DNA of 36,151 bases from Candidatus Synechococcus spongiarum LMB bulk15M (GTDB lineage Bacteria > Cyanobacteriota > Cyanobacteriia > PCC-6307 > Cyanobiaceae): assembly GCA_002018045.1 (NCBI GenBank), contig MWLD01000066.1:1-36151 (forward strand). The letters are read 5' to 3'. This document shows positions 31,165 through 36,151 of this stretch, piece after piece; position 1 is the stretch's first letter; each line of letters starts with the position of its first letter. The notes under the pieces were generated by a model. It worked only from the letters and a program-made list of their open reading frames with translations. It searched no databases and was not told the origin of the DNA. Made by a program: the position numbers and the translations under genes.

Positions 31165-31239
31165 AACGTCCTCACCAGTGTTCGTGCCGGGGAAGAGCCT
31201 CCTCTCCTATAGGCTGGTTTTCTGTGTGACCATGGCTTG

Positions 31240-32535
31240 ATGGACTCCCGGATCCCCTTATCGCTGAAGCGCGTCCTGGCACTTTCCGGGTGCAGTGCTT
31301 TGCTGGTGCTGAGCAGTGCCCTTCTAGCTGGCCGCAGCGGAGCGGTTCTCATTACGGACAGCCCCAAGGAGGTGGTTGACGAGGCGTGGCAGATCATTTA
31401 CCGCAACTACCTGGACTCCACAGGCGACTATGACAAGGGCAGTTGGCGCCAGTTACGCAAGGAACTTCTCTCGAAGAGCTATAGCACCAGGAACGAGGCC
31501 TACGAGGCCATTCGGGGCATGCTGCTCACGCTGGAAGATCCCTACACCCGCTTCATGGACCCTGACGAGTTCAAGGAGTTGCACATCGATACCTCCGGCG
31601 AGTTGACGGGGGTCGGAATCCAGCTCAGCTTTGACGAGGAGACCGAGCTGTTGACTGTAGTAGCGCCCATCGAGGATGGCCCCGCAGCCACGGTTGGCGT
31701 GCAGACCAACGACCGAATTGTGGGCATTGACGGCAAGGACGCCCGAGGGATGAGATCGGAAGAGGCGGTGAAACTGATCCGTGGACCCATCGGTTCTCGC
31801 GTCACCCTCACCCTTGATCGGGATGGCAAGACCTTCGACGTGGTGATCATCCGGGACCGTATCAGCATCAACCCGGTGGTGAGCCGGATCAATACAACTG
31901 CGGACGGCGCCCAGGTGGGCTACATCCGTCTCAAGCAGTTCAGCGCCAACGCGGCCACGGACATGTCCAAGGTGGTCAAGGACATGGAAGCCCAAGGTGT
32001 GGATGCCTACGTGCTGGATCTGCGTTTCAATCCCGGCGGACTTCTGGAAGCCAGCGTGGACATTAGCGATCAGTGGCTGGACGTGGACGTTCCCATTGTG
32101 AGCATCCAGAGTGGACGCTCCAGGAGGATACGCTTCACGCGAGAGGAACCGCTCACGAGCGATCCCCTGGTGATTCTGGTCAACGAGGTCAGCGCCAGCG
32201 CCAGTGAAATTTTATCCGGCGCCATTCAGGACAACGACCGAGGACAGCTTGTGGGTGAGCAAACCTTCGGGAAGGGGCTGGTGCAATCCGTGCGTGCGCT
32301 TTCGGACGGTTCCGGCATAACAGTGACCATCTCCAAATATCTGACTCCCGACGGTCGGGACATTCACCGGGAAGGGATTGCGCCGGACGTGGAGGCCACG
32401 CTGAGCATGGAAGAACTTCGGGACCTGGGCGTGGATGGCCTGGGCACCAGTAAGGATCGCCAATACCGGGTTGCGGAAGGGGTTGTCCTGAAAGCGCTGG
32501 TTCAGGCTGGCGGGGGAGACGCTCAGGACATCTAA
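31240..32535 (+). CDS. Carboxyl-terminal processing protease (S41A, Ctp family)
   Basis: A lumenal or periplasmic serine protease of 431 residues. A hydrophobic N-terminal segment (about 12-35) should act as a signal or anchor. Then come a Ctp N-domain (EVVDEAWQIIYRNYLD ... DPYTRFMDP), a PDZ domain (about 105-190, GVGIQLSF ... IVGIDGKDARGM) and the S41 core with the Ser in VNEVSASASEIL and the Lys in TFGKGLVQS. Cyanobacteria have CtpA (D1 maturation), CtpB and CtpC; the sequence looks closer to CtpB/CtpC, but I cannot decide. ATG 31240 is preferred over TTG 31237. Its stop overlaps that of the small gene on the other strand. Confidence 0.93.
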   Translation: MDSRIPLSLKRVLALSGCSALLVLSSALLAGRSGAVLITDSPKEVVDEAWQIIYRNYLDSTGDYDKGSWRQLRKELLSKSYSTRNEAYEAIRGMLLTLEDPYTRFMDPDEFKELHIDTSGELTGVGIQLSFDEETELLTVVAPIEDGPAATVGVQTNDRIVGIDGKDARGMRSEEAVKLIRGPIGSRVTLTLDRDGKTFDVVIIRDRISINPVVSRINTTADGAQVGYIRLKQFSANAATDMSKVVKDMEAQGVDAYVLDLRFNPGGLLEASVDISDQWLDVDVPIVSIQSGRSRRIRFTREEPLTSDPLVILVNEVSASASEILSGAIQDNDRGQLVGEQTFGKGLVQSVRALSDGSGITVTISKYLTPDGRDIHREGIAPDVEATLSMEELRDLGVDGLGTSKDRQYRVAEGVVLKALVQAGGGDAQDI

Positions 32536-32699: not shown

Positions 32700-33015
32700 G
32701 AGGATCCAGGCAGTTGCCGTAGCGTAACAGGACTTTTCCCTCCGTGGAGAAAATTGGAGCTTACAAAGCTGTTTCCGCCGACTGCCGACTTGCGATGACG
32801 TCACCTGCAAACCGGACAAGAGGTGAAGAAGATTTTGCAGGGTCCAGCAGGCTTGTTCAGGGGGGGAAACGGTGATTGTTGTGGCGCCCGGACGTGTACC
32901 GGAGCCCCCCCGTTGCGGTAAGCTCCACCTCACAGGGGAACCCCCGAACAACACCAGGGCGCCCCGAAACTCGCGCTTTCCGCATGACCCGGCCTGTAGG
33001 AAGAGAGAGGAAAGC
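32700..33015. other. Intergenic region without recognised features
   Basis: I see no coding frame with family character, no tRNA and no clear terminator here. The stretch contains a homopolymer-like run of G near 32860 and of C near 32925. Confidence 0.5.
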
Positions 33016-33045
33016 TTGACAGAGAAAGCAACTCCGGCTTAAGAT
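33016..33045 (+). promoter_or_regulatory. Strong sigma70-type promoter
   Basis: A perfect TTGACA (33016-33021) and TAAGAT (33040-33045) are separated by 18 bases. The expected transcript start is near 33052, giving a leader of about 28 bases to ATG 33080. It drives the repeat-containing gene. Confidence 0.65.
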
Positions 33046-33079: not shown

Positions 33080-36000
33080 ATGAAACCCATGAACAAGCCG
33101 GATCCGAAGCTGGTGAAATTGGGAGAGGATCGCCCATGGTTGTTTGGCGTGGATGGAGCGAGGGGAGACACGACAGTTAATGAGAAGAAGTTTCAAAACG
33201 TAGCTTTCGTAACCAGAAAGGAGTATAATTGGTCCAGAGGTCCAGAGGTCCAGAGGTCCAGAGGTCCAGAGGTCCAGAGGTCCAGAGGTCCCAGCACACC
33301 GGGGTGGTGTGTCATGAGGTGCGTCCAACGGGAGGCTGGCGCACCTCGTCTTGCCTCCACGCCTTCAACAGGCTCCCCGTCCAAAGCTGAAGCGGGTTCC
33401 GCTGGTGAGGCTTGTTTCCGCCGCCGCCTGCTGGCGCTGCTGCTGGCCGTTCCCGGCCTGTTCACTGCTGCCCCCGGTCTGGTCGTTGCTCCCACTGCGC
33501 TGCTGCTCGGCGCGCTCGGCCTGTTCGCCGCCGCGCCGGCACAAGCGCAGGTCTGGTCTGCCACGCTGACGGTGGATCAGGATGACACTTATTTCGGCTG
33601 CAGCACCGGGATCACATCCCAAAATGACTGCTCAAGCTCAACCGTCCTCACGGAAGATGAATTCACCTACGGGGGCACCAGCTACACCATAGACACACTC
33701 AATTGGAGCCCTCTTACTAATCGACTTTTCTTAAATATCAACGCCAACAGCCTTAGTGGTCAGGCGACCAGGACCGCCCTTGGTTCTTTGACGCTGACTG
33801 TGGACGTCGCCGCCCTGGCGGTCAGCGACGCCACGGCAAGTGGATTCTCGATCTATTGGTCGTACGACCCGGGCACGGCCGGGGACTGGACCGATGGCCG
33901 GACGGTGTTGCTGAGCCTGACGGCGCTTGCGGCCCCGACGGCCCTGACGGTAACGCCGAGCAACGCTCAGTTGGATCTGAGCTGGACTGCGCCCTCGGGC
34001 TCGCCGACGGGGTACGACGTGCATTACACCTCGGCGTCGAAAACGGGCGGCAGCGCGGTAACGGACGGTGCGGCGGCCTCGGGCAGCGACCCCGCCACCG
34101 CCTGGGTAGCGGTCACCCGCAGCGGCACGACGGCCTCCCAGACGATTTCAAGCCTGAGCAACGGCACGACCTACCGGGTGCGGGTGCGGGCGAAGACCAG
34201 CAGCGACATCGGCACCTGGGTGTTCGGCACGGGCACGCCCGCGCAGCCCCCCGACGCCCCGACGAACCTGGTGGTCACGCCGAGCGACGCATTCCTGGTC
34301 CTGACCTGGATCGCGCCCTCAAGCACGGTGACTGGCTACGACGTGCACTACACCTCGGCGGCCTCGGACTCGGTCGCGAACAGCGCGACGGCCTCGGGCA
34401 GCGACCCCGCCGCCGCCTGGGTCGCGGTCACCCGCAGCGGCACGTTTGCCTTGGAGGAGGTAATAAACCTGACCAACAACAAAGCCTACCGGGTGCGGGT
34501 GCGCGCGAAGAACCACAACGTCAACAGCGCCTGGGTGTTCGGCACGGGCACGCCACTGGTAGCGGTTAGCTGGGCCGCAACGCAAACCATTTCCGAGGGT
34601 CTGCTAACAAGTCAATCGGTGCTCTTCACGGGCCTCCCCGCCGGCGCCAGCGGCAGCCTGACCTATGCGGCCGGCAGCAACAATCCGGCCAGCCTGGCGG
34701 ATGACCTGCAGACCTACAGCACGGCGCTGGCAGCCAGTAACGGGGGACTGGAAATTACCCTGCCCTTGCCCGTCGACGATGCGCTGAACGAGGAACACGA
34801 GACCTTCACCATCACGATCAACCCCGGCACGGGATATTTGTTGGGCGCGCCGGCCACCCGGACCGTCACCATCACCGACAACGACCCGCCGGCGGCCCCG
34901 ACGGGGCTGTCGCTCGCGCCGGGGGATCAGAAGCTGACGGCGTCGTGGAGCAAGCCTGTGGGTCCGGTGGCGGGCTACCAGTTGCGCTACAAGGAAACAG
35001 CGGCGGCCGACCAGGCCGCCACGACGGCGAACGACCCGTCCACGGGCTGGGTGACGAGCACGCCGTCGGGCACGAACACGTCTGCGGAGATCACGGGGTT
35101 GACCAACGGGACGGCCTATCACGTGCAGGTGCGGGCAACGGACGGGCAGGCAGAGACGGGCAACGGCTACGGCTCCTGGTCGGCCTCGCAGACGGGCACC
35201 CCCGTGAGCGTCCCCGACGCGCCCACCAGCCTCAACGTCGCGCCGGGCAACGCACGGCTCTCCCTGTCGTGGACCGCGCCCGCCGGGACGCTGACCGGCT
35301 ACGACGTGCAGTACACCTCGGCGCTGGCGGCAAGCGTCGGGAACAACGCGGCGGCCTCCGGCAGCGACCCCGCCACCGCCTGGGTGGCGGTCACCCGCAG
35401 CGGCACGACGGCCTCCCAGACGATTTCGTCCCTGGTCAACGGCACGACCTACCGGGTGCGGGTGCGGGCGAGGAACAGCAGCGGCAACGGCGCCTGGGTG
35501 TTCGAGACGGGCAGGCCAGTAGCCCCCACGGTGTCGCCCATCACACCCACCCCTACCATCACACCCACACCGACCACTCCCACCACAACGACGACGCCAC
35601 GCCCGCGTGATCTCAGGCCCAGCTTCGGCAGCGCCAGTGTGCCCGCCCAGTCCTACACCGAGGGCACAGCAATCCCGCCACTCGAACTGCCGGAGGCAAC
35701 AGGTGGCGATGGTCGGTTGTTCTATGCGTTGTCACCGGTCCTGCCGGAGGGTCTGACGCTGAACAGGAGCGTCCGCCGTCTAAGCGGCACACCCACCACC
35801 CCGCAGGCTGCAAGGCAATACACCTGGACAGCGACCGACGCCGACGGTGATGCAGCCAGGATCACCTTTACGGTTACGGTAGCGCCGGATCTCAGGCCCA
35901 GCTTCGACAACGTCAGTGTGCCCGACCAGTCCTATACCGAGGGCACGGCAATTACCCCATTCGTCCTGCCGGAGGCAACAGGTGGCAACAACCCGTTGAC

Positions 36001-36151
36001 CTATGCGTTGTCACCATCCCTGCCAAACGGTCTGACGTTGAACCAAGTCACCCGTCGTTTGAGCGGCAGCGCGATCTCGCCCCAGGATACAACCCTCTAC
36101 ACCTGGACAGCGACCGACGCCGATGGTGACGAGGCAACGTTGACCTTTACC
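33080..36151 (+). CDS. Secreted repeat protein with FN3, Calx-beta-like and putative-Ig domains (incomplete, 3' end beyond window)
   Basis: The frame is open from 33062 to the last base; ATG 33080 gives 1024 codons without stop. Numbered from there: residues 1-50 hydrophilic; 51-70 octapeptide repeats from the 8-bp tandem; a basic RRR then a long hydrophobic segment with likely cleavage after AQA (about 156); a VWSATLTV domain (about 158-282); FN3 domains at about 285-385, 392-490, 604-710 and 713-813; a Calx-beta-like domain at 494-602 ending TITDND; a Thr/Pro linker (814-843); and two 93-residue putative-Ig repeats with YTWTATDADGD. ATG 33314, placed 34 codons before the signal peptide, is an equally good start. 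It is probably an adhesin-like surface or secreted protein. Codon use (ACG, GCG and TCG rich in FN3 parts) differs from neighbours, suggesting acquisition. Confidence 0.88.
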   Translation, partial: MKPMNKPDPKLVKLGEDRPWLFGVDGARGDTTVNEKKFQNVAFVTRKEYNWSRGPEVQRSRGPEVQRSRGPSTPGWCVMRCVQREAGAPRLASTPSTGSPSKAEAGSAGEACFRRRLLALLLAVPGLFTAAPGLVVAPTALLLGALGLFAAAPAQAQVWSATLTVDQDDTYFGCSTGITSQNDCSSSTVLTEDEFTYGGTSYTIDTLNWSPLTNRLFLNINANSLSGQATRTALGSLTLTVDVAALAVSDATASGFSIYWSYDPGTAGDWTDGRTVLLSLTALAAPTALTVTPSNAQLDLSWTAPSGSPTGYDVHYTSASKTGGSAVTDGAAASGSDPATAWVAVTRSGTTASQTISSLSNGTTYRVRVRAKTSSDIGTWVFGTGTPAQPPDAPTNLVVTPSDAFLVLTWIAPSSTVTGYDVHYTSAASDSVANSATASGSDPAAAWVAVTRSGTFALEEVINLTNNKAYRVRVRAKNHNVNSAWVFGTGTPLVAVSWAATQTISEGLLTSQSVLFTGLPAGASGSLTYAAGSNNPASLADDLQTYSTALAASNGGLEITLPLPVDDALNEEHETFTITINPGTGYLLGAPATRTVTITDNDPPAAPTGLSLAPGDQKLTASWSKPVGPVAGYQLRYKETAAADQAATTANDPSTGWVTSTPSGTNTSAEITGLTNGTAYHVQVRATDGQAETGNGYGSWSASQTGTPVSVPDAPTSLNVAPGNARLSLSWTAPAGTLTGYDVQYTSALAASVGNNAAASGSDPATAWVAVTRSGTTASQTISSLVNGTTYRVRVRARNSSGNGAWVFETGRPVAPTVSPITPTPTITPTPTTPTTTTTPRPRDLRPSFGSASVPAQSYTEGTAIPPLELPEATGGDGRLFYALSPVLPEGLTLNRSVRRLSGTPTTPQAARQYTWTATDADGDAARITFTVTVAPDLRPSFDNVSVPDQSYTEGTAITPFVLPEATGGNNPLTYALSPSLPNGLTLNQVTRRLSGSAISPQDTTLYTWTATDADGDEATLTFT
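33217..33231 (+). promoter_or_regulatory. Ribosome-binding-like site before TTG 33229
   Basis: AAAGGAG (33217-33223) lies 5 bases before TTG 33229-33231, which leads straight into the octamer repeat. At the present repeat number this TTG frame ends at TGA 33388-33390, so it does not match the main frame. This may be a second, phase-dependent start or a coincidence. Confidence 0.4.
33231..33290 (+). repeat. 8-bp tandem repeat GGTCCAGA, 7.5 copies
   Basis: Seven perfect copies of GGTCCAGA plus GGTC, inside the 5' part of the surface-protein frame. Because 8 and 3 share no factor, all three plus-strand frames read the same circular octapeptide (GPEVQRSR) with no stop. Copy changes that are not multiples of three shift the downstream frame. 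Confidence 0.97.
34052..35520 (+). repeat. DNA-level repeats within the FN3 modules
   Basis: Segments around 34073-34220 and 35353-35500 are nearly identical in nucleotides (encoding SGSDPATAWVAVTRSG then NGTTYRVRVRA), and 34390-34500 is a more diverged third copy. This indicates recent duplication or exchange between domains. Confidence 0.8.
35609..36151 (+). repeat. 279-bp direct repeats (putative-Ig modules)
   Basis: Copy 1 starts at 35609 and copy 2 at 35888, both opening with GATCTCAGGCCCAGCTTCG. The period is 279 bases (93 residues), and the second copy is cut by the window end. More copies may follow. Confidence 0.85.

Follow-up and report, generated by a model that had tools for sequence, protein, structure and literature searches.

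The window analyzed here, a stretch of 36,151 nucleotides that corresponds to contig C51 of source genome G000 (1.50 Mb, 84 contigs, 74% complete), contains close to its end a tandem octamer array that appears to be a phase-variation tract, located in a 5' module common to a family of secreted surface proteins. Judged from the sequence, the copy number of the octamer would set three states, namely, fusion of a short leader with the surface protein, a leader stop overlapping ATG 33314, or read-past. The original prediction of a phase-variation switch stands insofar as a contingency-type repeat precedes a surface protein, at 14 loci of the same genome and in at least four other species; its simple ON/OFF form does not. 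We consider it likely that the repeats cause some form of variation in the expression of these surface proteins. The narrower reading, a slippage-driven contingency tract in which the frame relation between leader and main open reading frame (ORF) is the operative variable, has in our judgment an even chance of being correct.

Results

The octamer array and its copy number

The array occupies positions 33231 to 33291 of the forward strand and consists of GGTCCAGA in tandem, with a period of 8, 7.6 copies, and 100% matches in the tandem repeat scan of the window; the roughly 7.5 copies originally claimed were thus confirmed without a mismatch. Matches to two units with up to 2 mismatches occurred 6 times in the window versus 0.03 expected from shuffles. 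The tandem repeat at the 5' end of the gene is therefore far beyond chance, as in SSR contingency loci. The octamer reads as the same stop-free octapeptide, GPEVQRSR, in all three frames. Elsewhere in the window, a stray GGTCCAGC was noted near 32841, as were a G7 tract (32860 to 32866) and a C7 tract (32905 to 32911), both upstream of the promoter-like site described below.

The true copy number may be larger than that assembled. Among all arrays of the G000 assembly, the maximum length of pure array was 62 nt, and four contigs break off after 54 to 56 nt. In a de Bruijn graph with k = 55, a value for the assembler that we deduced from the array lengths, a pure array of at least 55 nt becomes an 8-node cycle whose shortest passage is 55 to 62 nt. 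The 61 nt in the window are thus probably the assembly minimum and a lower bound on the array. Since 61 nt is only a lower bound, the claim that the gene is ON at the present copy number loses its basis; a simple ON/OFF scheme is also at odds with the conserved ATG 33314 behind the array.

Reading frames through the array

The frame that begins at ATG 33080 is open through the array, the signal peptide, and an FN3/Ig protein up to the end of the window, as had been claimed; because this is also the end of contig C51, the protein is incomplete. The unit length is not a multiple of 3, resulting in three states with a period of 3 in copy number, as is characteristic of contingency loci. When copy changes were simulated, the fused frame was obtained with +0 or +/-3 copies, whereas one additional copy led to the stop TGA 33315 and one copy fewer to TGA 33388, which reproduced exactly the two alternative-frame stops of the original prediction. 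TTG 33229, located 85 nt before ATG 33314, had been proposed as a further start, out of frame at present and in frame with one extra copy. This arithmetic is correct, but TTG 33229 was rejected as a likely start because only C51 and C18, 2 of the 13 paralogs, contain it.

Promoter-like site and hexamer

The promoter claimed upstream is present as a promoter-like TTGACA-N18-TAAGAT at 33016 to 33045 (forward strand), found once in the window versus 0.4 expected, and a similar block precedes most paralogs. The DNA upstream of the leader in C40, C55, C67, and C72 is unrelated or weakly related to that of C51 (53 to 61% identity; shuffle control with a mean of 52% and a maximum of 62%): before the ATG, C40, C67, and C72 are at shuffle level, and C55 is marginally above the mean. 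From the ATG onward, these four copies are 81 to 87% identical to C51. Homology that sets in at the start codon, behind upstream DNA that varies, points to the leader being a coding module.

Directly before the array lies a -10-like hexamer, TATAAT (33224 to 33229, forward strand). The motif TANAA[TG] was found at this place in 13/13 paralogs, across leader frames 0, 1, and 2, and a similar hexamer precedes 10/10 congener arrays examined; the background chance is 0.7% per 9-nt slot. As the hexamer is kept though the leader frame differs, it is conserved as DNA and not as protein. No recognizable -35 element was present at 16 to 19 nt from the hexamer in the window family, and the TTGACA in G009 is 23 nt away. 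G009 also contains poly-C tracts of 13, 14, and 13 bases in C4, C8, and C53, respectively, about 240 to 250 nt before the arrays and upstream of the leader, where its other paralogs have short, interrupted tracts; these may represent a second slippery element in the promoter region.

Coding constraint on the leader

The leader ORF, MKPMNKPDPKLVKLGEDRPWLFGVDGARGDTTVNEKKFQNVAFVTRKEYN, extends from 33080 to 33230 on the forward strand and reads into the array. Its first 35 codons are free of stops in the ATG frame in 13/13 G000 copies, whereas stops were present in 13/13 in the other two frames. The pN/pS ratio of the G000 leaders was 0.59 in frame versus 0.95 and 0.98 in the other frames, a difference that is moderate by itself (bootstrap, 0.37 to 0.92; column shuffle, 8%). 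In G009, the distance from the leader ATG to the array phase was 143, 146, 146, 149, 149, 161, and 161 nt; 7/7 are 2 mod 3, so that all indels are multiples of three, which argues that the leader is translated in G009. Frame f0 is open to the array in 8/8 leaders of G009 and SH4. By these measures, the leader is under coding constraint in G000 and G009. In the last third of the G000 leader, indels break the frame, and a stop is present in the leader of C18; such indels matter little because the octamer gives the same octapeptide in any frame.

The leader has no Pfam match and was rejected as a known domain. An Rfam element was likewise rejected, the only match being a sub-threshold one to a human lncRNA family. 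No copy of the leader DNA turned up in the other 399 family genomes searched (9 congeners and 390 others) or in the further genome contigs searched.

A probable second start behind the array

The array is followed by a spacer (33292 to 33313, forward strand) with a Shine-Dalgarno-like GGGGTGG and a 7-bp hairpin, and then by a second start, ATG 33314, which opens an N-terminal region with the signal peptide (MRCVQREAG...LLALLLAVPGLFTAAPGLVVAPTALLLGALGLFAAAPAQAQ; 33314 to 33550, forward strand). The hairpin was rejected as a conserved element, given that its stability is at shuffle level (z = -0.14) and that it is missing in C18 and C67. Within the spacer, 1-nt indels between paralogs break the frame, whereas after ATG 33314 the frame is kept (the indel in C79 is 6 nt). 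The block from 33314 to 33550 was found at 7 loci of the same genome and in 0/9 congeners, and GTCATGAGG is kept in the 7/7 copies that extend to it. At the equivalent place, G009 and SH4 contain a comparable Shine-Dalgarno-like stretch with an ATG, GTG, or TTG, followed by a related N-terminus (MVGPPP, MVAPPP, or VVTPPP). This conservation makes it very probable that the downstream ORF is translated from a start of its own, ATG 33314. A translation start upstream of the repeat is supported by the coding constraint on the leader, yet a conserved start lies also behind the array. With ATG 33314 conserved and its N-terminus conserved in frame, out-of-frame copy numbers need not be OFF. In C72, none of the codons ATG, GTG, and TTG occurs from the array to the signal peptide, and as assembled this copy is out of frame. 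The ATGA overlap of stop and start was rejected as independent proof of coupling because it is not significant: in the background, 26% of cases show a stop in the +1 frame at position +1 or +4 relative to an ATG or GTG.

The mature protein (33551 to 36151, forward strand; cut by the contig end) contains FN3 and He_PIG Ig-like domains (Pfam fn3, E = 6e-39; He_PIG, E = 6e-14). A signal peptide, recognized by inspection, together with fn3, Calx-beta, LapA, and He_PIG domains is consistent with the surface factors encoded at contingency loci, and a surface location of the encoded proteins is predicted.

Fourteen loci in the same genome

A search of the source genome with the leader DNA retrieved 14 loci and a fragment at a contig end, so that the window does not represent a unique locus. 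Nearly all 14 have an octamer array. Array lengths of 14 to at least 62 nt were measured, and the shortest copies have about one unit. Arrays of GGTCCAGA occur at nine places in the genome, 9/9 directly behind a leader copy. Four unit types were observed, each uniform within its array: GGTCCAGA, TGTCCAGA (C18), GGTCCGGC (C67), and GGCCCGGA (C72). Repeated slippage is expected to leave such a trace, a mutated unit that has spread over an entire array; the homogenized variant units and varying lengths, which are the best indirect evidence, point to ongoing slippage and array turnover.

In most copies where the contig continues, the array is followed by the conserved ATG 33314 and the block with the long signal peptide. 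The mature proteins behind this module differ: FN3 and He_PIG (C51), FN3 (C48), Calx-beta with a LapA match (C55), and Calx-beta and He_PIG (C82). Leader and main frame are fused in C51, C79, and SH4, and offset by +1 in C48, C55, C67, C72, and G009 C4, C8, and C16. C82 has about one unit and a leader stop. In C35 (1960 to 2028), the leader is cut short and the array is joined inside it at a shared CTGGT, as by deletion at a short shared sequence. At the end of its 700-aa frame, C55 has a CCCCCCC tract where the Calx-beta protein loses frame, and a C-terminal He_PIG-like domain (DLRPSFGDITVEDQSYTQGM) is encoded after this tract in another frame.

Arrays in congeners

One genome per species was compared. 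The source organism is a member of the Candidatus Synechococcus spongiarum clade, which consists of sponge symbionts. The CtpA-type S41 protease gene upstream (31237 to 32535) matches, at 79 to 86%, contigs of this species and of related sponge MAGs. No long array is present downstream of ctpB in the congeners, and this site was rejected as a location of their arrays. In G007:C25, which is probably NZ_JENA01000025.1 of strain SH4, a leader (MAEFTLGSEHG...), a heptamer array (GGAAGCA, 16.9 copies), a signal peptide, and FN3 are all in one frame. Seven loci of G009 combine a related leader with an octamer of another sequence; six of them contain CAGGAGCG arrays (26 to 91 nt or more), C64 has a single unit, and one array consists half of CAGGAGCC and half of CAGGAGCG. 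G003 and G008 each have a CAGGAGCG array at one locus, and the G003 leader is unrelated in sequence. The CAGGAGCG arrays of G009 C53 (91 nt) and G003 C68 (150 nt) are cut off by the contig ends, so that their true lengths are longer still. The same layout with other repeats in related species suggests that these symbionts may randomly vary their cell surface, like some animal-associated bacteria.

Discussion

In the model that we propose, the small leader ORF from ATG 33080 would read into the array, and replication slippage in living cells would add or remove octamers. As 8 is not divisible by 3, three arrangements would be possible: the leader could be fused in frame with the secreted protein, end at TGA 33315 in an overlap with the separate ATG 33314 that would suit termination-reinitiation, or run 74 nt past ATG 33314. 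Three levels of expression could result, and cell lineages would differ in how much of each surface protein they make or in its N-terminal form. In this manner, 14 independently varying loci could diversify the surface of the symbiont population, with a potential benefit in the sponge. More tentatively, and with the odds somewhat against it, the cassette of leader ORF, repeat, and second start may form a genus-wide contingency system of sponge-symbiotic cyanobacteria, acting as a three-state switch (fusion, coupled reinitiation, or read-past) on many surface proteins and keeping its position while the unit and leader sequences turn over between species.

Several observations argue against the frame model. 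A conserved start belongs to the main ORF itself, so that the leader frame may matter little; the frame is broken by indels late in the G000 leader and by a stop in that of C18; in a fused protein, the signal peptide would lie at an unusual distance, about 110 residues, from the N-terminus; and the hexamer beside every array suggests that transcription may start inside the array. Given this -10-like hexamer, a 5'-untranslated region (UTR) effect is a serious rival: TATAAT would be the -10 box, transcription would start in the first units, translation of the message would begin at ATG 33314 with the array as its 5' UTR, and expression would be tuned gradually by copy number, as in Haemophilus hmwA. 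The hexamer is kept in all three leader frames and before congener arrays in four unrelated sequence contexts, three species share a conserved GGNGG with an ATG or GTG behind the array, and 7- and 8-nt repeats upstream of hmwA provide a precedent (PMC8262952, PMC2651432, PMC3309571). Such a rheostat leaves the open leader frames and the multiple-of-three indels unexplained, however, and no -35 element is recognizable at the proper distance in the window family, the TTGACA of G009 being 23 nt away; we regard it as rather unlikely.

The shared block of leader, array, and signal peptide could also serve as a recombination anchor that promotes exchange between loci and shuffles promoters and surface domains, copy-number change being a by-product with little effect on expression. 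The mosaics of weakly related promoters and near-identical leaders, the different mature domains behind one block, and the junction inside the C35 leader are consistent with this. Yet recombination needs no tandem array and does not explain unit homogenization at single loci, which makes it improbable. Least probable, and very unlikely in our view, is that slippage merely expands arrays behind a duplicated 5' region with no regulatory role. Degenerate, locked-looking copies such as C82 and G009 C64 would fit such neutrality, whereas neutral drift can hardly account for arrays that recur at one and the same site in at least four species whose leaders and units are unrelated, and where the contig continues the arrays always lie between leader and signal peptide.

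Repeat-driven phase variation is mainly known from animal pathogens and commensals. Frame-switching contingency loci include the Haemophilus lic genes and modA, with tetranucleotides, and Neisseria opa, with CTCTT. The symbiont loci, for which switching is a proposal, resemble these in that a start codon is separated from the functional reading frame by a repeat whose unit length is not divisible by 3; they differ in their 8- and 7-nt units, the leader of about 50 codons, and the second conserved start. Haemophilus influenzae hmw1A and hmw2A have a 7-nt ATCTTTC, or an 8-nt GCATCATC in biogroup aegyptius (PMC8262952, PMC3309571, PMC2651432). There too, a long-unit tandem repeat lies 5' of paralogous large secreted adhesins, and its length differs from paralog to paralog and from strain to strain (PMC8262952, PMC3309571, PMC2651432), paralogs being what was compared in the symbiont. 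However, the hmw repeats function as a rheostat from within the promoter or the 5' UTR, whereas the array of the symbiont is entered by a leader ORF that appears to be translated, and 14 loci with different mature proteins use one module.

In cyanobacteria, long-unit tandem repeats are represented by the heptameric STRR repeats GGGGA(C/T)T of Nostoc and Anabaena, which are mostly non-coding/intergenic, G-quadruplex-type, and dispersed (PMC4692102), unlike the symbiont arrays at one fixed position in surface-protein genes. FN3-rich proteins of sponge cyanobionts are described, as "eukaryotic-like," for Ca. Synechococcus feldmannii, where all FN3 genes of one genome had SNPs; no repeat switch was seen in that article, the main text of which contains neither "tandem repeat" nor "phase" (PMC6506613). 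In the open-access literature, we found no paper on repeat-driven phase variation in Ca. S. spongiarum, and none of the cyanobacterial papers found clearly describes such a locus.

If the proposed model is correct, a widespread sponge symbiont would have 14 switchable surface proteins of the FN3 type. Such loci would explain why short-read assemblies break at them, and they would provide a concrete mechanism by which the symbiont diversifies its surface towards sponge cells or phages.
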